Shown here piece by piece: positions 53,536-64,000 of a stretch of DNA of 64,000 bases. The DNA is from Nocardia uniformis NBRC 13702. GTDB taxonomy: Bacteria > Actinomycetota > Actinomycetes > Mycobacteriales > Mycobacteriaceae. The position numbers were made by a program, and so were the translations under genes. The stretch is from NCBI RefSeq assembly GCF_001613345.1, contig NZ_BDCE01000091.1:1-64000 (forward strand). The letters are read 5' to 3'. The notes beneath the pieces are model-generated. The model saw only the letters and a list, made by a program, of their open reading frames with translations, searched no databases and was not told where the DNA came from. Each line of letters opens with the position of its first letter. Positions within the stretch are counted from its first letter, which is position 1.

Positions 53536-54294
53536 TCAGGCGATTTCCAGGGCGACGGTGTGTTCGTGGGAGTGTCCTCGGGATTCCTGCTCGGGCGGGC
53601 GGGTGGTCGGACGGCCGGGGACCGTGAGGCGGACCTGCGGTCGTGGGCCGACGTCACTCGACCGGGAATGCGCTCGTTCGAGCAAGGCGTAACCGGGATT
53701 GGAGCCGTCGTCATCGACGCGGGATGCCAGGCGTGCGGTGCCACCCACAGCGAGCACGCCGAGGACGCAGACCAGGTGTGCGCAGCCGAAGGGCAGTGGG
53801 ACCGGGAGGGGGTCGCCAGGGCAGGTGAACAAGCGGTCGAAGCAGATCACGGTCGACCAGAGGCTGCTGCGCTGAGTGGCGATCAAGCGGGTGGAACCCG
53901 TGCCGACGAGCCAGGCCGGGTCGTCGATGCCGAGATCGTCGCGGGGTGGGGTGCGCGGTGGGGTGCGCGCAAGCTCCTCGAGATTCGCGAGTCGGCGGTA
54001 TCCGTGTGGCGATTCCGCGGGGGGACCGAGTATTCCGATTCCGCCCGCCCGGGCGACGGTGAGGAGCGCCTCGACCGTTTCCACACGGTTTCCGGGTGGG
54101 ATGGGGACCGGCTCACCGGGGCGCAGGCCGGCGTCGGCCAGGTGGCCCGCCATTCGTCCGGTGCGTTCTGATAGGGCGCGAAAGCTGATGGAGCGCTGTG
54201 TGTCTCGGAATGCGATCGCGTCACCCAATTGTGCGGCACGTCTGGCCAGGAGTCGCGGGAGTGGTTGCAATAGTTGGGTACGCAGCATGTCCAC
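53536..54294 (-). CDS. Shortened AMP-binding (acyl/aryl-ligase-like) protein
   Basis: A 252-residue protein that matches only the first half of the adenylate-forming ligases (normally about 500 residues). N-terminal blocks are intact: LLARRAAQLGDAIAFRD, SERTGRMAGHLADAGLRPG. The AMP-binding P-loop, normally TSGTTGRPKG, is reduced to GTGSTRLIATQRS. Later blocks FDRLFTCPGDPLPVPLPFG and VLGVLAVGGTARL survive, then homology stops. It cannot activate an acid alone. It follows the chorismate-lyase gene by 16 bp, so the pair recalls the mycobacterial p-hydroxybenzoate genes Rv2949c/FadD22. It may be a decayed ligase or a partner protein. Confidence 0.6.
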   Translation of the reverse strand: MDMLRTQLLQPLPRLLARRAAQLGDAIAFRDTQRSISFRALSERTGRMAGHLADAGLRPGEPVPIPPGNRVETVEALLTVARAGGIGILGPPAESPHGYRRLANLEELARTPPRTPPRDDLGIDDPAWLVGTGSTRLIATQRSSLWSTVICFDRLFTCPGDPLPVPLPFGCAHLVCVLGVLAVGGTARLASRVDDDGSNPGYALLERAHSRSSDVGPRPQVRLTVPGRPTTRPPEQESRGHSHEHTVALEIA

Positions 54295-54310: not shown

Positions 54311-54847
54311 TCAGCGCAGAAACCATTCCCGGATTACGAATGCGGGTTTGTGGGCTATGAAGATGCGATAGCAACGGGCGCAGACGGCGTCGTCGGGTCT
54401 GCCGTAGAAGAGTAGTTCTCGATACGATTCCGCGGCGGCGGCCTGCAGGGCCGCGCCGATTCCCTCCGGCTCGGTGGTCAGGGCGGCGGTGAAGGCGGGT
54501 GGGAGGCGGTCGAGTGCGATCAGCGATTCCGCTCGCGCGTAGCGGGTTTCGCTGCGGGATCCGATCAGATCGACATGCCGGACGAGGATTCTTTCGGCGG
54601 GCGCTACGTCCAGCCAACCGTCCTCGACAGCACCGGCCGGTTGCTCGTATTGGCGGATGCAGCGGGCGTCGACCTGTTCCAGGACGAAAGCTTCCAGGGT
54701 GCGGGTCACCGTGCCGTCGGTGAGGAGCATGCTGCGGTGATATGGGGTCAGCGTGGTGACCGACAGGTCACGCCAGCTCGGTGGCCGCGCATACGTGGCG
54801 TGAAAATGTTTATGTACCAAAGCCTCTGCTGATACTTCGGTCAACAT
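54311..54847 (-). CDS. Chorismate pyruvate-lyase-family protein (UbiC/DUF98-like)
   Basis: A 178-residue protein like M. tuberculosis Rv2949c, which splits chorismate into 4-hydroxybenzoate and pyruvate. Family blocks are RSMLLTDGTVTRTLEAF, ERILVRHVDLIGSRSETRYA (the basic residues that bind carboxylates) and ESLIALDRLPPAF. The C-terminal CARCYRIFIAHKPAFVIREW is also shared. It sits just upstream of the AMP-binding gene on the same strand and near a polyketide operon, so it probably supplies an aromatic starter or building block. Whether it makes 4-hydroxybenzoate needs testing. ATG 54847. Confidence 0.72.
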   Translation of the reverse strand: MLTEVSAEALVHKHFHATYARPPSWRDLSVTTLTPYHRSMLLTDGTVTRTLEAFVLEQVDARCIRQYEQPAGAVEDGWLDVAPAERILVRHVDLIGSRSETRYARAESLIALDRLPPAFTAALTTEPEGIGAALQAAAAESYRELLFYGRPDDAVCARCYRIFIAHKPAFVIREWFLR

Positions 54848-55169
54848 GGCGCAACCTCGATCAGCTCGTCGCCGGGCCGGCGGGGGCCGCGGCAGTCGTC
54901 TCTCATGACGCGAGTCTGGACCCGGACTCCGGGCGCGCAAACCCCTACGTACAGCGACCCCTACGTCACCGTCCGCGAGGGCTTTCGACCTTGACAAGCC
55001 TTCCGGACTTGATGTTTCCTGACTTCTGCACCAACGCACACGACAGTGCAGTTCCACCCGTATCAAACCGTGGATCGGTTGTGGCAGCGCTGCCCGCAGT
55101 TCCGCACGCGAGAATGTCGTGCAATCTAGCCGAACCTGTTGCGGTACAGCGAGATTCTGGGGCACACGT
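54848..55169. promoter_or_regulatory. Divergent promoter region of the polyketide genes
   Basis: The 322 bp between the chorismate-lyase gene (leftward) and the LuxR gene (rightward) hold no supported gene. Weak CCTACGTACAGCGACCC/CCTACGTCACC repeats stand at about 54943-54970. Both start regions are likely here. Confidence 0.4.
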
Positions 55170-57314
55170 ATGGCGCACCGAATTACCATCAAGCAGCGAA
55201 GATCGAGGACGGTCGTCTCGGGGGCGACGGATCCGGCGTCCACCTGTCTGGCCGGTGCGATGGGACGCGAGCTGGCTCCTACGGGAACATCCGCGGCGCT
55301 GCAACGGATTCCGGCACGACCGGACGTCTCCGATATCGATGTGGCGATCGTGCTCCGCCTGCGCCGCGGATCCGTCGAGCATCTGCGGGTCGCCGAGGCG
55401 GTGACGGTGCTCGGTGAGTCGAGTGCGGTCAAAATGATCGCCGAACTCTTACAAGCGGATTCGAACGCCGTGCGCCGGGTGCTGGCGCATTTGGCCGGTG
55501 CCGGGATACTCGATGGCTGCCGCTTCCGCAACCGGGAGGCCGGGGCACTGCTGTTGCGCGGCATGCGGGTCGACCAGCGCCGCCGACTGCATCGGCGGGC
55601 TGCCGAACTGCTCTACGACCACGGTGCTCCCGTCTCCGAGGTCGCCGAACATCTGGTGCGGGCAGGTGGATCTCGATGCTCCTGGGCCAGTGTGGTTTTG
55701 CGCGCCGCCGCCGAAACCGCACTCGTGCTGGACCAACTGAGCCGGGCGCTGGACTTCCTCGAGCTCTCCTATCGAACGACCACCGACAGCCGGGATCGCG
55801 CCGAAATCGCCAGTACGCTGGCAGCGATCGAGTGGCGGGTGAATCCCTCCACGACCACGCGGAATTTCGCGCGCCTGCACGCGGCCCTCCGGGGCGGCGC
55901 GGCGTCGGTTCCGGCGCTGCGCGAGGCGGTGCGCTACCTGCTGTGGTACGGCAGGGTCGACGATGTGCGAACGGCATTGATTGTGCTGGACCGGAATTCG
56001 TCCATAGCAGTGACGGACGAGTATGCGTTCCAGCGCGTGTGGATCGGGTACATATATCCGGAACTAGCCGGCGACGGCAAGATCGACGCGGCTGCCGAAT
56101 CGGAGCAGATCGGCGGCGAGGTCTCCGCCTATCGGCTGGCAAAGGGTCTGCTGGCCGCCATGTCCGCCGACGGCGCGGGCGAGTCGACGGTGACTGCCGC
56201 GCACCGGATTCTGTCGAGGCATCGCCTCGACGCCTCCACCGTCGAGATACTGACGACCGCCCTGGAAGGTCTCATCCATGCCGACAAACTGGATGCGGCC
56301 GCGGCGTGGTGCAGTGCTCTCCTGGCGGAGGCATCGGCACGGTCGTCGCCCACCTGGCAGGCAATCTTCGCCGGTCTGAACGCCGAAATCGCCCTGCGGC
56401 AGGGCAGATTGGACGACGTCTCGCAGCACGCGGTGCTGGCCCTGAATCAGGTGCCCGCCGAAAATCTCGGCATAGTCATCGCCCGGCCGCTGGCATGCCA
56501 CGTGCGCGCGCTCACCGCGTCCGGTCGATTCGATGAGGCGCGCGCACAACTGGCGCGGGATGTGCCACTCGGACTGTTCGATTCGCGTCAGGTGCTGCTG
56601 TACCTGAATGCCCGCGGTCATCTCGCACTCGCCACGGGTCATGTGGCCGACGCGCTGGTGGACTTCCAGCTGTGCGGTGCGCTCATGCGGCACTGGAACC
56701 TGGATCTGTCCGGCCTGCTGGCCTGGCGCAATGATGTGGCGCAGGTGTACCTGGCGGTGGGCGACCTGCCTCGGGCCCGCGCCTACGCCCAGCGACACCT
56801 CGATCTGCTGGGCGATCCCGAGCGACACGGCAGCGGAGGGGAATCGTTACGCCTGATCGCCGCCACCGCCGACCCCGCCGACCGCGTGGTCCTGCTGCAC
56901 CGCGCCGAGGCGATCGCCCGCCGTGGCGAAGACAGGCTCGAATTGGCGCGGGTACTGGGCGATCTCGGCCGCGCCTACGGCCTGCTCGGTCAGGAGAGCC
57001 GCTCCCGCTCGCTGCGCCGCTCGGCCATGCGCCTGGCCCGCTACTGCGGCGCCGAGGTGCTGTACCGGCAATTGACCGGCGACCCGGCCGCCGAACCCCC
57101 GAGCCCACCCGCCGACGCCGCGGCCGCCGGCCTGCTGACGGCGGCCGAACAACGCGTGGCGGAACTAGCAGCGCGCGGCCTGCGCAATCGCGATATCGCG
57201 GGGGAACTCGCAATCACCACCAGTACCGTCGAACAGCACCTGACCCGCGTCTACCGAAAACTGAAGGTGCGCAGGCGAGGTGAGCTGCGGTTCATCCTGA
57301 GCACCCGGTGCTGA
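55170..57314 (+). CDS. LuxR-family regulator with TPR-like body, no ATPase domain
   Basis: A 714-residue regulator. The last 70 residues are a LuxR-type HTH (LTAAEQRVAELAARGLRNRD, TTSTVEQHLTRVYRKL). The rest is a series of helical, TPR-like repeats (for example DAALVDFQLCGALMRHW and RAYAQRHLDLLGDP). It resembles the C-terminal three quarters of large ATP-binding LuxR (LAL) regulators that govern polyketide clusters in actinomycetes, but the N-terminal P-loop ATPase domain (about 250 residues) is missing. Start ATG 55170 or a GTG at 55119. It probably activates the nearby polyketide genes. Confidence 0.78.
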   Translation: MAHRITIKQRRSRTVVSGATDPASTCLAGAMGRELAPTGTSAALQRIPARPDVSDIDVAIVLRLRRGSVEHLRVAEAVTVLGESSAVKMIAELLQADSNAVRRVLAHLAGAGILDGCRFRNREAGALLLRGMRVDQRRRLHRRAAELLYDHGAPVSEVAEHLVRAGGSRCSWASVVLRAAAETALVLDQLSRALDFLELSYRTTTDSRDRAEIASTLAAIEWRVNPSTTTRNFARLHAALRGGAASVPALREAVRYLLWYGRVDDVRTALIVLDRNSSIAVTDEYAFQRVWIGYIYPELAGDGKIDAAAESEQIGGEVSAYRLAKGLLAAMSADGAGESTVTAAHRILSRHRLDASTVEILTTALEGLIHADKLDAAAAWCSALLAEASARSSPTWQAIFAGLNAEIALRQGRLDDVSQHAVLALNQVPAENLGIVIARPLACHVRALTASGRFDEARAQLARDVPLGLFDSRQVLLYLNARGHLALATGHVADALVDFQLCGALMRHWNLDLSGLLAWRNDVAQVYLAVGDLPRARAYAQRHLDLLGDPERHGSGGESLRLIAATADPADRVVLLHRAEAIARRGEDRLELARVLGDLGRAYGLLGQESRSRSLRRSAMRLARYCGAEVLYRQLTGDPAAEPPSPPADAAAAGLLTAAEQRVAELAARGLRNRDIAGELAITTSTVEQHLTRVYRKLKVRRRGELRFILSTRC

Positions 57315-57408: not shown

Positions 57409-58503
57409 CTAGGCCGGAATGGCCTCGATGATCGACAGCGGCGCGGCGGTCGGCGTCACGCGGATATCGCGGAAACCGGCCTTGCCCAGGAGAGCTCGAT
57501 ACTCGGTCGCGGTGCGTTCACGGCCCCCTATCGTCAGCAGGACATGCAGGTCCAGCCATAGGCTGAGGTGGAATCTGTTGCGCTGCTCCGGAATCAGGCA
57601 CTCGATGAGTTGCAGGCGCCCGGTGGCGGGGATTGCCTCGCGGACTGCGCGCAGGATTTGGAGCGCAGGTTCGTCCTGCCAGTCGTGCAGGATGTTCTTC
57701 AGGACGTAGACGTCGGCTCCGGCGGGTACCGCTTCGAAGAACGAACCGTTCTCGATGGTGCAGCGCTGCGCGACGCCCGCATTGCGCAGGACGTCAGGGG
57801 CGGTAGCGGTGGCGGGGGTGAGATCGTAGAGGATTCCGCTGCTGTGGGAAGCGAGGCCGAGGATGGCGGCGAGGAGATACCCGGAGCCGCCACCGATATC
57901 GGCTATGCGGGGGAAGCGGGAATAGTCACCGGCGGCGAGGATCGACGCCGCGGCCAGTTGCGAGGTCACCCGCATGGCGTCGTGGAAGGCGGCCGCCAAC
58001 TCAGGATCTTCGGACAGATGGGCGAAACCTGTGATGTGGTGCGCGAGTTCGTGCCCGGAGCGTCCGGTCTCGACACTGCGCTTCAGCTGCGCGCCGGTGG
58101 CCCACATGACCGGATGTCCGGCGGCGGCCAGCAGGGGGCGCACCGAGTGGGGGGAGTCGGAGCGCAAGGGCTCGGCCACGGCATTGAGGGCGAATCGCCG
58201 ACCGCGCAGCTCGCGGAATACCCCGTGACCGGCGAGCATACGAAGCAGCCGGTAGGTGGTATCGGGATCGGTACCTACCCGCTCGGCCAACTCGTCGGCC
58301 GTGCGCGGCCCGTCGGACAGTACGTCGGCGATGCCGAGCTGCGCCGCGGTGTAGAGGGCCTGTGACAGCAACCAGCCATCGGCGAGGCTGAGCAGGCCGA
58401 GTGGGGCGGGCATCGTGCGTAGCAATAGCCGGCGCACCCGGGCGTGGACGGATTCGCCGATACGGGCTAGACGCGGGGGTGGTAGGAATCGAGGCGCGTT
58501 CAA
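57409..58503 (-). CDS. O-methyltransferase (plant-type, acetylserotonin OMT-like)
   Basis: A 364-residue methyltransferase with an N-terminal dimerisation winged helix (GWLLSQALYTAAQLGIADVL, TDPDTTYRLLRMLAGHGVF) and a SAM domain (RIADIGGGSGYLLAAIL, DVYVLKNILHDWQDE, which holds the catalytic His). Such enzymes O-methylate phenols and polyketide hydroxyls. It is 24 bp downstream of the DarA-like gene on the same strand, so it probably methylates that pathway's product. Confidence 0.87.
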   Translation of the reverse strand: MNAPRFLPPPRLARIGESVHARVRRLLLRTMPAPLGLLSLADGWLLSQALYTAAQLGIADVLSDGPRTADELAERVGTDPDTTYRLLRMLAGHGVFRELRGRRFALNAVAEPLRSDSPHSVRPLLAAAGHPVMWATGAQLKRSVETGRSGHELAHHITGFAHLSEDPELAAAFHDAMRVTSQLAAASILAAGDYSRFPRIADIGGGSGYLLAAILGLASHSSGILYDLTPATATAPDVLRNAGVAQRCTIENGSFFEAVPAGADVYVLKNILHDWQDEPALQILRAVREAIPATGRLQLIECLIPEQRNRFHLSLWLDLHVLLTIGGRERTATEYRALLGKAGFRDIRVTPTAAPLSIIEAIPA

Positions 58504-58527: not shown

Positions 58528-59979
58528 TTACCGGGCAAGTCCGGTGGTCATGGCGCGGATGAGCTCCTGATGGGGGTCGGCGCCGCGCAGCACCGCCGCC
58601 ACCACACCGCCCGGACCGACCAGCACCGCACGGCCGTCGTGCAGACCGTACCCGTCCAGTGCGCTCCCGGAGGGGTCGTACAGGCGCTGCCCGTCGAACG
58701 CGCCACCGACGGGCGCATTCGGTCCGTACCCCTGCGGCGCATCGTCGGCGCGGTCGTGCACGTCGAGCCGTCCGCCGTTCGGGTGTTCCCCGTTGGTGTC
58801 GGCGGCCTCGTGCGGCCTCGCGTCGGGCGTGGCGGTGCGGGAAATGGTCAGTGCGGCAATCGGTGTCGTGTCCATAATGCGCACGTATCCGATGGCGTCC
58901 CGCCACCGTGGTTCGGCTTCCTCGCCGCAGAGCAGCAGGAATCCCTCGTCGCGCGGATCCGGGACGGTGATCTCTTCGCCACTGTGACGGCGTAGGCGAT
59001 AGCGGGGCGCCGGGCGTCCGAGATCCACAGCGGTCGAGGCGATGTCGGCTGCCGCCGGCCGTGCGAGGCGGGGAATATCGCCGAGACGGCGGTCGATCGC
59101 CCGGTCGATACGCCGGTGCAGCGGCAGTGCCAGCAGTACGGCGAGCGGCAGTATCGCCAGCGACAGGCCCAGCCAGACGACGAAGGCGCTGACCGCGACG
59201 GCTCCGAGAGCCGGGCTGCGCCGTGTCGCCGCCCTGATCATGCTGCCCCACCGCCGGAATAGCCTGCCGGCCATCAGGTCCGCACCCGCGACCGGATACT
59301 TGACCGGCGCACCGATGACCGTCCGTTCCGTCTCGGTGGGAGAGAGATCGGACCAGGCTCTACCACACTCGCGCAGCCGGTCGAGCTCGCGATCGTCGAT
59401 ACCCGCTCGCCCCAGTGGTCCTCGGGTCCGCCGACGTCCGCCGAACATCCAGCGCAGCGTGGTGATCAGTGTGATCAGCTGCGGCCGGGTATCGGTCGCC
59501 ACCGCGGCACCCAGATGGCGGGCGCCCAGCTCGGTGAGCCGCTGTTCGACCTCGAGGACCGCCGAATACCACATCTTTCGGCAGGCGACGACCGACACCA
59601 CCGCACGATCGGCGAACATCTCCGGATGTGTGTTCAGAACCGTCCGCATGGGCAACGACGGCGACAGATACCAGACCTGATAGGCCAGCACGATCAATTC
59701 GTCCGGGGCGATATGGAATTCGGAATCCGGCGTCGCCAACTCGATTTCCGCCCGGTCATCGACACAGGTGGGAAAGACACCGAAGAACTTGCGAATCGAC
59801 CACGGGAACGGATACGGCTGCGCCGGTGTGACGGCGACCTGACGAATATGCCAGCCAGCCGCGGCGAGTGGCGCGATGAACGCCTCCATCGCCTCGGTCA
59901 GTTGACCTGTCTGGGAATAGTGGAAAACAACGGCGCGCCGCGTCGGAACGCCGTCGTCGCAAAAACTTTCGGAGGCCAT
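58528..59979 (-). CDS. DarA-like dialkylresorcinol-condensing protein with extra C-terminal domain
   Basis: A 483-residue protein. Residues 14-300 resemble DarA, which acts with the KAS III DarB in making 2,5-dialkylcyclohexane-1,3-diones and dialkylresorcinols: a flavodoxin-like start (VVFHYSQTGQLTEAMEAFIA), TPAQPYPFPWSIRKFFGVFP, and VWYLSPSLPM. A membrane segment follows at about 262-287 (VAVSAFVVWLGLSLAILP). Residues about 320-483 are extra: GRPAPRYRLRRHSGE, LDGYGLHDGRAVLVGPGG, resembling the thioredoxin-like C-terminal domain of phenol-hydroxylase-type monooxygenases. The DarA assignment rests on remembered family features. It is divergent from the ACP gene. ATG 59979. Confidence 0.6.
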   Translation of the reverse strand: MASESFCDDGVPTRRAVVFHYSQTGQLTEAMEAFIAPLAAAGWHIRQVAVTPAQPYPFPWSIRKFFGVFPTCVDDRAEIELATPDSEFHIAPDELIVLAYQVWYLSPSLPMRTVLNTHPEMFADRAVVSVVACRKMWYSAVLEVEQRLTELGARHLGAAVATDTRPQLITLITTLRWMFGGRRRTRGPLGRAGIDDRELDRLRECGRAWSDLSPTETERTVIGAPVKYPVAGADLMAGRLFRRWGSMIRAATRRSPALGAVAVSAFVVWLGLSLAILPLAVLLALPLHRRIDRAIDRRLGDIPRLARPAAADIASTAVDLGRPAPRYRLRRHSGEEITVPDPRDEGFLLLCGEEAEPRWRDAIGYVRIMDTTPIAALTISRTATPDARPHEAADTNGEHPNGGRLDVHDRADDAPQGYGPNAPVGGAFDGQRLYDPSGSALDGYGLHDGRAVLVGPGGVVAAVLRGADPHQELIRAMTTGLAR

Positions 59980-60207: not shown

Positions 60208-60474
60208 ATGTCGATCGTAGTAGAAATACAAAAGGACATCTTCGACTATCTCGATTCCCATTACGGGATAGAACCGGAGGAAATCAAAAGCCATTCCAAG
60301 CTCAACGAACTGGGCGTGGACTCGCTGGGCCTGCTCGCGATCGTGGATATGGTGAAGAAGAAGTACGGTATAGAACTCGACGACGAGCGAATCGCGTCGG
60401 TACGGACCTTCCAGGATTTCACCGAACTGCTGGAGCGCAAATGCGCGGCCGCCGAGCGAGCGGGCAGAGCGTGA
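60208..60474 (+). CDS. Free acyl carrier protein
   Basis: An 88-residue ACP. The phosphopantetheine serine is S39 in ELGVDSLGLLAIVDM; the acidic helix following and the KKKYGIELDDERIA region are standard. It starts at ATG 60208 after GAGG. Its stop overlaps a GTG that could begin the ketosynthase gene, so they are coupled. It most likely carries the acyl chain for the DarB-like enzyme. Confidence 0.85.
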   Translation: MSIVVEIQKDIFDYLDSHYGIEPEEIKSHSKLNELGVDSLGLLAIVDMVKKKYGIELDDERIASVRTFQDFTELLERKCAAAERAGRA

Positions 60475-60479
60475 CTCCG

Positions 60480-61616
60480 ATGCCCGTCTACATCACCTCG
60501 ACCGGCCGATTTCTGCCCGGCGCACCGGTTTCCAATGACGAGATCGAGGACTACATCGGCCGCGCCGGCCTGGCCTCGGCCGATCTGCGCGACATGATCC
60601 TCACCAATAGCGGTATCAAGACCAGGCATTACGCCATCGACAAGCGGCAGGAGACGGTCTACTCGAATACGCAGATGGCCGCCGAGGCCGTGCGCGAGGC
60701 CGTCGCCCGCTCCGGTCTGGGGCAGGACGAGGTCGAAATGCTCGCTGCCGCAACCACAATGCCGGACCTGCTCGGTCCCGGCCACGCCAGCATGATCCAC
60801 GGCGAGGTCGGTTTCGCGCCGCTGGAGGTGATGACCGCGCACGGTATCTGCAGCTCGGGCATGATGGCGCTCAAAGACGCCTACCTGCAGATCGCGGTGG
60901 GGGAGAAACGCAATGCCGTGGTCGTGGCCAGCGAATTCGCCTCCCGCGGTTTCAAGAGCTCCCGCTACGCGCAGCTGGAATCGGTCGTCGAGGACGGCAC
61001 CCTGCCCATGGAGACCGCCTTCCTGCGCTACATGCTCTCCGACGGTGCGGGAGCCGCTGTGTTGCAGAACGAACCGGCGGCCGAGGGCATCAGCCTGCGC
61101 ATCGACTGGATCACCCTGACCTCCTACGCCAATACCGAACAGGCGTGCATGTTCTTCGGTAGCAAGTCCAATGACTGCGCCAAGACCTGGGGCGACTACC
61201 CGGACGCGACCGCCGCCGCCGTGGACGGTGCCATGGCCCCGCGTCAAAAGCTCTCCCTGTTACCACATTTGGTGGAGGTGGGCATAGAGGAGTATCAGAA
61301 GCTGGTCGCCACGGGACGTTTCGATCCGGAGAAGGTCACCTGGTTCCCGGTGCACTATTCCAGCGAGCGCATGAAGCACCTGATGATCGGTGAGTTCAAG
61401 CGTCGCCAGATCGGCGGCGGCAGGCTGGAGAGCTGGTACAGCAATCTGACCCGGGTCGGCAATGTCGGCTCGGCCAGTGTGTATCTCATTCTCGACGAGA
61501 TGTTGAACGAGGGGATTGTTCGCGAGGGCGACACGCTGCTGTGCATGGTTCCCGAATCGGGCCGTTTCATTATCTCCTTCATGCATTTGACCGCGGTCGC
61601 CGGAAACCAGTCGTAG
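60480..61616 (+). CDS. DarB-like beta-ketoacyl-ACP synthase III
   Basis: A 378-residue KAS III-family condensing enzyme. The triad is C124 (GICSSGMMA), H292 ([11 protein letters not shown]) and N328 (RVGNVGSAS). The opening [21 protein letters not shown] and the [13 protein letters not shown] block match the DarB type, which joins two acyl thioesters to form a cyclohexanedione that becomes a dialkylresorcinol. ATG 60480, or GTG 60471 overlapping the ACP stop. Lies between the ACP and the PKS genes, 26 bp upstream of the latter. Whether it uses the PKS product is inference. Confidence 0.68.
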
Positions 61617-61642: not shown

Positions 61643-64000
61643 ATGGCGGAGGAAGAACTGCGCGCGTATCTGCGCACGGCGGTACGTGAGCTGCAGCAGA
61701 GCCGGGAACGATTGCGGCAGTGGGAATCGCGTGCGAGCGAGCCGATCGCCATTGTATCGATGGGCTGCCGTTTCCCCGGCGGTGTCACCGGCCCGGCGGA
61801 CCTGTGGCGCATGCTCGTCGAGGCCCGAGACGTGGTGTCCGGGTTCCCGGATGACCGCGGCTGGCAGCTGGAGCACCTCGACGATCCGGACCCCACACGC
61901 GGGAATCTCGTACAACGCGGCGGATTCCTCGATGCGGCAGGCGATTTCGATTCTCGATTCTTCGGAATCAGTCCGCGCGAGGCATTGGCAATGGATCCGC
62001 AACAGCGGCAGTTGCTGGAGGTCACCTGGGAGACCCTGGAGCGCGCGGGTATCGATCCGACCACCCTGCGGGGCAGCCGCACCGGGGTATTCGTCGGAAT
62101 GATCGGCAATTCCTATGGCTTTCTCGATGGGTCGTACCGGGCGTTGACCGCCGCGCAGCTCACCGAGGTGAGTGGGTTCCTCATGACGGGTGTGGCCGCG
62201 GCCGCCGCCTCGGGCCGAATTTCCTACGTATTCGGGCTCGGCGGTCCCGCCGTCACCGTGGATACGGCGTGCTCGTCGTCGCTGGTGGCACTGCATCAGG
62301 CCGTGATATCGCTGCGCAGCGGGGAATCGGAGCTGGCGCTGGCCGGTGGGGCCACGGTTATGACGACACCCGATATGTTCGTCAGCAGCAGTGAGCGCGG
62401 TATGGCTCCCGACGGGCGATGTAAGTCCTATGCCGCCGGCGCGGACGGGACAGTCTGGGCCGAGGGCGTGGGAATGTTGCTGCTGGAGCGACTTTCGGAT
62501 GCGCAACGCAATGGGCATCCGATCCTGGCCACTGTGCGCGGTTCGGCCCTCAATTCCGATGGGGAATCCAACGGGCTCACCGCGCCGAACGGTTCAGCGC
62601 AGCGGGGCGTGATTCGCGATGCGCTGGCGAATGCCGGACTGTCGGCTCCGGAGGTGGATGTCGTGGAGGGCCACGGCACCGGCACCATTCTGGGTGATCC
62701 GATCGAATTGCAGGCGCTGCTGGGCACTTACGGGCGGAACCGGGAGCGGCCGGCGCTGCTGGGATCGATAAAGTCGAATATGGGGCACAGCCTCGCCGCG
62801 GCCGGTATGGCGGGCGTGATCAAGCTGGTGCAGGCGTTACGCGATGGGATCGTCCCGCCCACGCTGCATGTCGATGCGCCGACGCCGCACGTGGATTGGT
62901 CGGCCGGGCAGGTGCGGCTGGCGACTACCGCACAGCCATGGCCGGAGACCGGACGGCCGCGGCGGGCGGCGGTGTCATCGTTCGGCATTACCGGAACCAA
63001 TGCACATGTGATCCTGGAACAGGCACCAGTACAGGACGATTCGTTCGACCCGGCGCCGCGATCGGCGCCACCATGCCACATATGGCTGTTGTCGGCGCGC
63101 TCAGCGCGCGCATTGCCGGTGCAGGCCGCCCGGCTGACGGCATTTCTGGCCGTACATGACGACGTTGATCCGTGCGATATCGGGCATGCGCTACTGGTGT
63201 CACGGGCCCGGATGCCCTTCCGCGCGCTCATGATCGGCCGGACGTACGGCGATCTGGTCGAGGCGACGGAAGCGCTGGCGGCCGGCCATGAGTCGGAGGC
63301 GGTGGTGCGCGGGCAGTCCTCGCCGACGGCCAAGACGGTGCTGCTGTTTCCCGACACCTGCCCCACCCCTGCCGCCGGGCGCGGGCTCTACCGTGATTTC
63401 GCGATCTTCCGTAGAGCTTTTGACCAAGTGGCACAAGGAAGTTCTGATCCAGCAGCGCTGTCGGGTGTTGTGCGCGGTGACAGTGCCGCGGCGGATCGTC
63501 TATGCAACACCCCCAATCTCACCGATTCCTATCGCCATGCGGTCCAGATCGGCTTGTATCGGCTGATGGTGTCGTTCGGGCTGAGAGTGGACCACCTTAT
63601 CGGCCGGGGTGCGGGGGAGGCGGTGGCCGCGTATGCGGTCGACACCCTCGGTCCGCCCACACCCCCGGTACCGGTTCAATGCGAAGCTGGGCTCGAAGCC
63701 TCCTTGAAATCGGTGGCGCAGGACAATGGTTCGATTCTGATCGAGCTGGGCGACGCCACGGCCATCGACTGGCTACGGGATACCGTGCACGCCGCTGTCG
63801 CACCCGATACCGACGTGGTGGCGGTCGCCGCCCTCGGCGATACGGGTACCGACGACCCGGATCAGGCTGGTGTCTCGGTACTGAGGGCCCTGGCCGCGGC
63901 ACACGCGGCCGGTGCGCCGGTGGACTGGACGAGGCTGTACGCCCACTCGGGTGCGCGGCGAACAGAGTTGCCCACCTACGCATTCCAGCACCGCGGATAC
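61643..64000 (+). CDS. Type I modular polyketide synthase, 5' part (KS plus vestigial AT); runs off the window
   Basis: The open frame (about 786 codons so far) starts at ATG 61643 after GGAGGTGGG. Residues 1-30 are a docking coiled coil ([20 protein letters not shown]). Residues 33-460 are a ketosynthase with C210 (DTACSSSL), H344 (EGHGTGT) and H382 (NMGHS), so condensation is possible. Residues about 564-720 take the AT place: the start KTVLLFPD and FDQVAQ fit, but the GHSxGE motif is GRGAGE (Ser to Ala, His to Arg). The middle of the domain is then missing: only about 45 residues remain before the IELGDA strand instead of the usual 190-200. The linker end [11 protein letters not shown] is normal. 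The next domain (probably DH) is past the edge. Confidence 0.85.

Follow-up and report, generated by a model that had tools for sequence, protein, structure and literature searches.

The window analysed here comprises 64,000 nucleotides, bases 1-64000 of contig NZ_BDCE01000091.1 (C91) in the 8.77-Mb genome of Nocardia uniformis NBRC 13702; other genomes carry G-numbers, and the loci read in them L-numbers. A polyketide synthase (PKS) protein, KS-AT0, lies at the 3' end of the window, with a ketosynthase (KS) followed by the remnant of an acyltransferase (AT). It is preceded by a discrete acyl carrier protein (ACP) and a ketosynthase III (KSIII), and the cluster continues beyond the window. Features are as follows.

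53536..54294, minus strand: AMP-ligase remnant, 252 aa (Pfam match to residues 17-86 only)
54311..54847, minus strand: chorismate pyruvate-lyase, Rv2949c-like (PF01947, 35.1 bits, cut-off 22)
55119..57314, plus strand: LuxR-type regulator, start not settled (annotation by family)
57409..58503, minus strand: O-methyltransferase (annotation by family)
58528..59979, minus strand: 483-aa protein with no family match, beside the cassette in 5/5 species (comparison of five loci)
60208..60474, plus strand: discrete ACP, 88 aa, GVDSLG (Pfam; adjoins KSIII in 5/5)
60480..61616, plus strand: KSIII related to StlD/DarB (best PDB match StlD, 3e-76; NCBIfam NF005293, 373.9 bits)
61643..64000, plus strand: KS-AT0, 790 aa, with its stop at C91:64015, 15 bases past the window (open reading frame, Pfam)
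61643..61726, plus strand: N-terminal docking helix, PF08990 (Pfam, 20.7 bits, just below the 20.9 cut-off)
61739..63019, plus strand: ketosynthase with Cys210 (TACSSS, 62264-62281), His344 (EGHGTGT) and His382 (KSNMGH) (Pfam, motifs)
63074..63328, plus strand: conserved KS-AT linker domain (Pfam, alignment)
63329..63619, plus strand: N part of the AT remnant, where ten residues replace LFPGQGxQ and GRGAGE (63602-63619) replaces GHSxGE (alignment)
63620..63724, plus strand: short variable spacer where the AT core was deleted (alignment)
63725..63871, plus strand: AT remnant from the late strand ILIELG onward (alignment)
63872..64000, plus strand: last AT helix and post-AT linker (a 15-residue segment), with 12 coding bases beyond the window (alignment)
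C91:67039-73830: PKS2, ACP-KS-AT-DH-ER-KR-ACP, 2263 aa (Pfam)

Pfam recognizes the docking helix, both ketosynthase halves, the KS C-terminal extension and the linker domains of KS-AT0; the AT-derived pieces keep their proper order after the linker, and the stop codon comes right behind the post-AT linker. Pfam and reading to the stop codon found no ACP in the chain, and because none is encoded KS-AT0 is a stand-alone protein and not a complete extension module. The KS had been called intact in a first-pass annotation of this DNA, and the catalytic C210/H344/H382 are indeed invariant across all five orthologues described below, the Cys-His-His set predicted for a functional ketosynthase. The active site of the G044 protein (L056:15930) reads YTACSSS. 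A KSQ loading module was rejected for KS-AT0, given that TACSSS retains the active Cys with no Gln replacement.

The AT is a stump. PF00698 was not detected in the KS-AT0 protein (Pfam, E <= 1e-3), and a whole-genome PF00698 search of N. uniformis returned 18 places, none within KS-AT0. As first reported, GRGAGE stands where GHSxGE is expected and the frame is open, here from 61643 to C91:64015. The GHSxG nucleophile elbow is gone in 5/5 species (GRGAGE, GRGGGA, GEATGE, GAGAGR and GQGIGE), and the GQGxQ motif of KS-AT0 is lost as well. The GHSxGE position and the late E[LIV]G strand lie 46 residues apart in N. uniformis, 42 in G044, 53 in G136, 90 in G013 and 92 in G010, as against 179 in the intact AT of N. 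uniformis PKS2 and 177 in those of PKS3 from N. uniformis, G044 and G013; these four intact ATs served as controls, the PKS2 of G010, G013 and G044 being left out. The N. uniformis protein thus lacks ~130 AT core residues (46 versus 177-179), so the core loss originally described stands, although the figure of ~150 residues was somewhat high. Because the Ser-His nucleophile elbow and the core are gone, acyltransferase activity is ruled out for the AT as recorded; to judge from its sequence it is almost certainly dead, with the stump conserved across species. The statement that the module could not load malonyl-CoA is accordingly sound as regards the AT but misplaced as regards the module, since KS-AT0 stands alone with no ACP.

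Four orthologues of KS-AT0 were located through the adjoining KSIII gene in a set of 150 Nocardia genomes (G044, G010, G013 and G136), and all four also lack the Ser and the AT core, to differing depths. Profile A1, built from the five remnants, so that its search gives extent rather than independent support, matched at full length (483-524 bits) in 5/150 Nocardia genomes, with no sixth full-length match found in that set; the other 12 genomes with A1 matches at E <= 1e-56 scored no higher than 207.7 bits, and their matching frames are 1044-6798 aa long. When the AT0 profile was run across the order (397 genomes, 163 matching at E <= 1e-20), N. uniformis alone gave a full-length match among the matches listed, the next best of these being the AT of its own PKS2 (192.6 bits). 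A single-protein search returned one close relative, in N. crassostreae (L051, which is probably G044 and was counted once), and four Streptomyces loci. Of the latter, the three examined (L052, L054 and L055) were rejected as look-alikes on account of their intact ATs, as was a 795-aa frame in G292 that is interrupted by a stretch of Ns and has an intact GHSIGE inside. Among the publications listed by a literature search, and in the accessible parts of the Nocardia cluster surveys PMC7413640 and PMC4035055, none on this cluster was found, which is not proof of absence from print.

Phylogenetic placement used 26 KSs picked by regular expression (the PKS2 of G044 was among those missed). The KS-AT0 ketosynthases fall into a single clade (100/100) on the docking-type KS side of the tree, with N. 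uniformis and G044 (99/97) and G010 and G136 (100/98) as pairs. Given these pairings and the motif spacings, a loss of ~85 residues is best placed in the common ancestor, and a second loss of ~40 residues would have happened at least twice, a history we infer from five sequences.

Constraint is unevenly distributed along the protein. The KS aligns with no gap between N. uniformis and the other four species at 70-83% identity (355/427 with G044, 327/427 with G013), with an NG86 dN/dS of ~0.15 against G044, a rough value because synonymous sites are far diverged. Against G044 and G013, respectively, identity in the KS-AT linker is 52/85 and 43/85 for KS-AT0 (PKS2, 53/85 and 48/85), and in the post-AT linker 40/47 and 30/47 (PKS2, 30/47 and 26/47; PKS3, 37/46 and 31/46). 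In the N part of the AT the corresponding values are 57/97 and 41/95, compared with 74/104 and 78/104 in PKS2 and 76/95 and 70/93 in PKS3. Judged by these identities, the KS, the linker and the post-AT linker are conserved about as in the intact modules of the same clusters, with constraint relaxed in the AT core. Some selection at the protein level probably still acts on the stump: changes between N. uniformis and G044 at codon positions 1/2/3 number 25/25/54 in the AT N part (chi-square p 3e-4), and the C part shows 11/10/21 (p 0.07); the test is noisy, as the AT N part of the intact PKS2 control gives only 21/16/28. Rough NG86 ratios for the AT N part give no consistent picture (stump 0.22, intact PKS2 0.46, intact PKS3 0.15). 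When modelled by itself (310 aa, pLDDT 69.5, pTM 0.74), the stump superposes on intact PKS ATs, for example over 286 residues at 2.5 A (Z 25.9), and intact AT rows in the alignment behind the model may have helped this superposition; the full-length AlphaFold2 model of KS-AT0, built from 6 alignment rows, reached a pLDDT of only 38.1.

The order ACP, KSIII, KS-AT0, FAD1 is kept in 5/5 species. The KSIII gene ranks among the most strongly conserved (81-86%); at 373.9 bits over residues 3-373 of 378, against a curated NF005293 cut-off of 450, it falls outside the StlD/DarB family as that model delimits it. FAD1, an FAD amine-oxidase-like gene of the amine-oxidase/HpnE kind that scores under the HpnE cut-off, follows KS-AT0 in N. 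uniformis, and is itself followed by an aldehyde dehydrogenase on the opposite strand, PKS2, PKS3, an AfsA-type gene and a second FAD gene. KS-AT0 and PKS2 are separated by FAD1 alone in G010, by FAD1 and the aldehyde dehydrogenase in N. uniformis and G013, and by ~12 kb in G044. PKS3 and AfsA come after PKS2 in N. uniformis, G044 and G013, and were not matched within the 5.5 kb read past PKS2 in G010. G136 has a minimal cluster on its contig C74 (L058, L104 and L116) made up of the regulator, the O-methyltransferase, the 483-aa protein, ACP, KSIII, KS-AT0 and FAD1; no match to PKS2, PKS3 or AfsA was found in C74:24000-62000, nor any to the lyase or the AMP-ligase stump in the three loci (for the AMP-ligase, C74:24000-79000).

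Several further observations concern the surrounding genes. The protein at 58528-59979, for which Pfam and NCBIfam gave no match, shows 46-63% identity across most of its length in 5/5 species. In G044 (probably N. crassostreae), FAD1 is split over two frames (L056:12421-13668) with KS-AT0 open, and PKS2 (L103:10465-17280) has one in-frame TAG within its KS. G038 and G057 (L105 and L106) have a PKS2-PKS3-AfsA-FAD2 block with no KS-AT0 cassette in the stretches read. The chorismate pyruvate-lyase is also matched in G044, G010 and G013; the NCBIfam chorismate lyase model gives the N. uniformis protein merely 19.4 bits (cut-off 175), and its Rv2949c-like character suggests a 4-hydroxybenzoate starter.

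A second loading domain in the cluster is reduced in a similar way. Homologues of the AMP-ligase remnant are in frame in G044, G010 and G013 (266, 296 and 292 aa, counted from where the match begins to the stop codon), with extra losses in N. uniformis and G044 that are deepest in N. uniformis. With the G010 remnant as query, matches at E <= 1e-30 came from 22/298 genomes of the order, and among the 26 matches listed 20 lie in frames >2,000 aa; these longer relatives we take to be loading domains at the front of large PKSs. Ten plasmid matches listed comprise four type I PKSs, three SDR-family oxidoreductases and three in unannotated records. Between N. uniformis and G044, codon changes at positions 1/2/3 of the stump are 73/54/134 in 245 codons. 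Two loading domains of one cluster are thus eroded in parallel, and more deeply in the sister pair N. uniformis and G044.

The first-pass annotation had called for a separate AT gene in the cluster to be looked for, and a PF00698 search of C91 found none; two of the 18 PF00698 places in the genome lie on C91, and these are the intact cis-ATs of PKS2 and of PKS3 (docking-KS-AT-ACP, 1061 aa). The only one of the 18 in a frame <1000 aa is a FabD-like gene of 367 aa on contig C117, whose neighbours are presumably a KasA-type KS and aceE. The PKS2 AT has the motifs GHSIGE and HAFHS, and the PKS3 AT has RAFHS; HAFHS is described as malonyl-specific in the accessible part of PMC4035055. The KS of PKS3 (L019:13965) reads DTACSGA in all three KS-AT0 clusters with PKS3, and that of G057 reads DTACSSS.

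PKS2 opens with an orphan ACP in all four KS-AT0 clusters that have it (N. uniformis, G044, G010 and G013), and three similar PKSs with no adjoining KS-AT0 (G038, G057 and G136 contig C12; 3/3 read) open with a docking helix and KS; those of G038 and G057 are not plain orthologues of PKS2, because their KSs sit across the KS tree from its KS. A whole-genome search with the 545-aa N terminus of PKS2 gave a best match of 58% in G136, inside a 6336-aa frame, versus 72-84% in G044, G010 and G013, and listed nothing on G136 C74 except KS-AT0 itself. An orphan N-terminal ACP on the next PKS is thus found in 4/5 species with KS-AT0 and not in G136.

Since the loading half of KS-AT0 is a dead stump that four related species keep, the building blocks are probably supplied by a partner protein. 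Mainly because PKS2 starts with an ACP in 4/4 clusters and similar PKSs with no adjoining KS-AT0 do not, we favour, at close to even chances, a split first module formed by KS-AT0 and the N-terminal ACP of PKS2, in which the AT would be kept for structure. The KS-AT linker, the shaved AT core and the post-AT linker would still fold against the KS, which would accept a starter acyl group and condense it with an extender carried on the orphan ACP. Another AT would load this ACP, most simply that of the same PKS2 polypeptide, with the AT of PKS3 or a housekeeping FabD as alternatives. With the ACP carried by PKS2, the KS-AT half would no longer have needed its AT, which would then have eroded. 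An AT would then act in trans on the KS-AT0 assembly, as had been proposed, and this partner ACP, the loading AT and the scaffold role of the stump are what we infer. The earlier proposal of a shrunken AT serving as scaffold fits the kept frame and the conserved linker and post-AT linker, but had wrongly placed that scaffold within a module. We suggest, still more tentatively, that a cis-AT assembly line has been caught converting to in-trans loading: the AMP-ligase and the first AT would have become separate genes and eroded to in-frame scaffold stumps, with the KS and ACP fully constrained.

Several points weigh against a split module. FAD1, with or without the aldehyde dehydrogenase, or ~12 kb separates KS-AT0 from PKS2, the codon test is weak, and the comparison PKSs of G038 and G057 are not plain orthologues. 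KS-AT0 always adjoins the discrete ACP and KSIII, which suggests another partner, and G136 has KS-AT0 with no N-ACP PKS2 found, which favours the discrete ACP. Mainly because of G136 and of nine further Nocardia loci (L060-L068), KS-AT0 may alternatively have become a type-II-like ketosynthase, acting together with the adjoining discrete ACP and StlD/DarB-like KSIII to make a beta-ketoacyl partner for a head-to-head condensation, a possible if somewhat doubtful arrangement. Modification of the resulting ring would fall to FAD1 and the O-methyltransferase, and the AT would be superfluous, the discrete ACP being loaded by a FabD or another AT. In each of the nine loci a related ACP adjoins a KSIII of 68-73% identity, and ~2.5-3.1 kb further downstream the same strand encodes a separate KS (30-35% identity); Pfam, run on L060, finds KS domains and no AT in that KS. 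The adjacency of the four cassette genes in 5/5 species, their retention in G136 and the strong conservation of KSIII agree with such a system. However, KS-AT0 retains a docking helix such as modular PKSs have, the front ACP of PKS2 in 4/4 clusters is left unexplained, and the ring role of FAD1, being of the amine-oxidase/HpnE kind, is putative. An aromatic-ring-hydroxylase-like FAD gene is also present in L060 and L064, the two loci read more closely.

It is unlikely that the start of the assembly line is simply decaying, with KS-AT0 and the AMP-ligase stump as pseudogenes. Two eroded loading domains, the in-frame stop in PKS2 and the two-frame FAD1 of G044, and the KS branch of G136, the longest of the five (0.31), are consistent with decay; they are countered by the ungapped KS with its 70-83% identity and low dN/dS, by frames that remain open despite several deletions and by the codon-position bias of the AMP-ligase stump. 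It is very improbable that KS-AT0 is an ordinary docking-domain protein of a trans-AT PKS. The architecture of KS, linker and short remnant resembles one, CurL-like and RhiE-like linker models match (the RhiE-like model under its cut-off), and chain 7zma also has a piece resembling the post-AT linker; yet in three solved chains labelled as AT-less PKS the alignment to the KS-AT0 profile ends at position 549-551, whereas in cis-AT KS-AT didomains it runs on to 794, so AT-type sequence extends well past an ordinary docking domain. Moreover, the KS of KS-AT0 falls, on the tree, among those of cis-AT-bearing Nocardia PKSs, and intact cis-ATs lie in the same cluster, where PF00698 on C91 yielded no dedicated trans-AT gene. 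Mis-assembly or sequencing error, conceivable in a draft of 144 contigs, can in practice be set aside, given comparable losses in five separate genomes. Neither of the two refuting cases raised in the first-pass annotation, an ordinary docking domain and a mis-assembled deletion, is therefore borne out.

To our knowledge, the route from cis-AT modules to trans-AT-like loading is mostly seen at its end points. The five species form a graded series of AT loss around a conserved KS, with 90-92, 53 or 42-46 residues left versus 177-179 in four intact ATs, which allows one to ask which AT parts a KS needs once catalysis is gone. The series also bears on the question of whether an orphan ACP can be loaded by an AT nearby, and on the engineering of AT-free condensing units. 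Inactive and truncated ATs are already known, as the accessible parts of PMC11672594 and PMC12081711 describe; the graded series over several species is the point of interest here.

Among known systems, cis-AT KS-AT didomains (DEBS modules, Lsd14 and the GfsA KSQ-AT) align end to end with the KS, linker and post-AT linker of KS-AT0, and its modelled stump superposes on AT structures; unlike them, KS-AT0 lacks the nucleophile Ser-His, ~130 core residues and an ACP in the chain. With trans-AT KSs that have an AT docking domain it shares a retained linker, a predicted absence of AT activity and loading that would come from elsewhere, but it keeps more AT sequence and a cis-AT-like KS, with no dedicated trans-AT found in the cluster. 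By description, PepC of the Streptomyces pepstatin cluster is similarly a separate PKS gene with a truncated AT domain, differing in its NRPS context and in a cluster type elsewhere called cis-AT in the same paper (accessible part of PMC12081711). Also by description, the AT of irumamycin module 12 has lost the GHS serine in a type I PKS (replaced by Gly and judged inactive), in that case inside a module (accessible part of PMC11672594). The neighbouring KSIII is closest to the StlD/DarB ketosynthases and adjoins a discrete ACP; it differs from them in scoring under the curated cut-off and in that its partner KS would be the type I KS-AT0.
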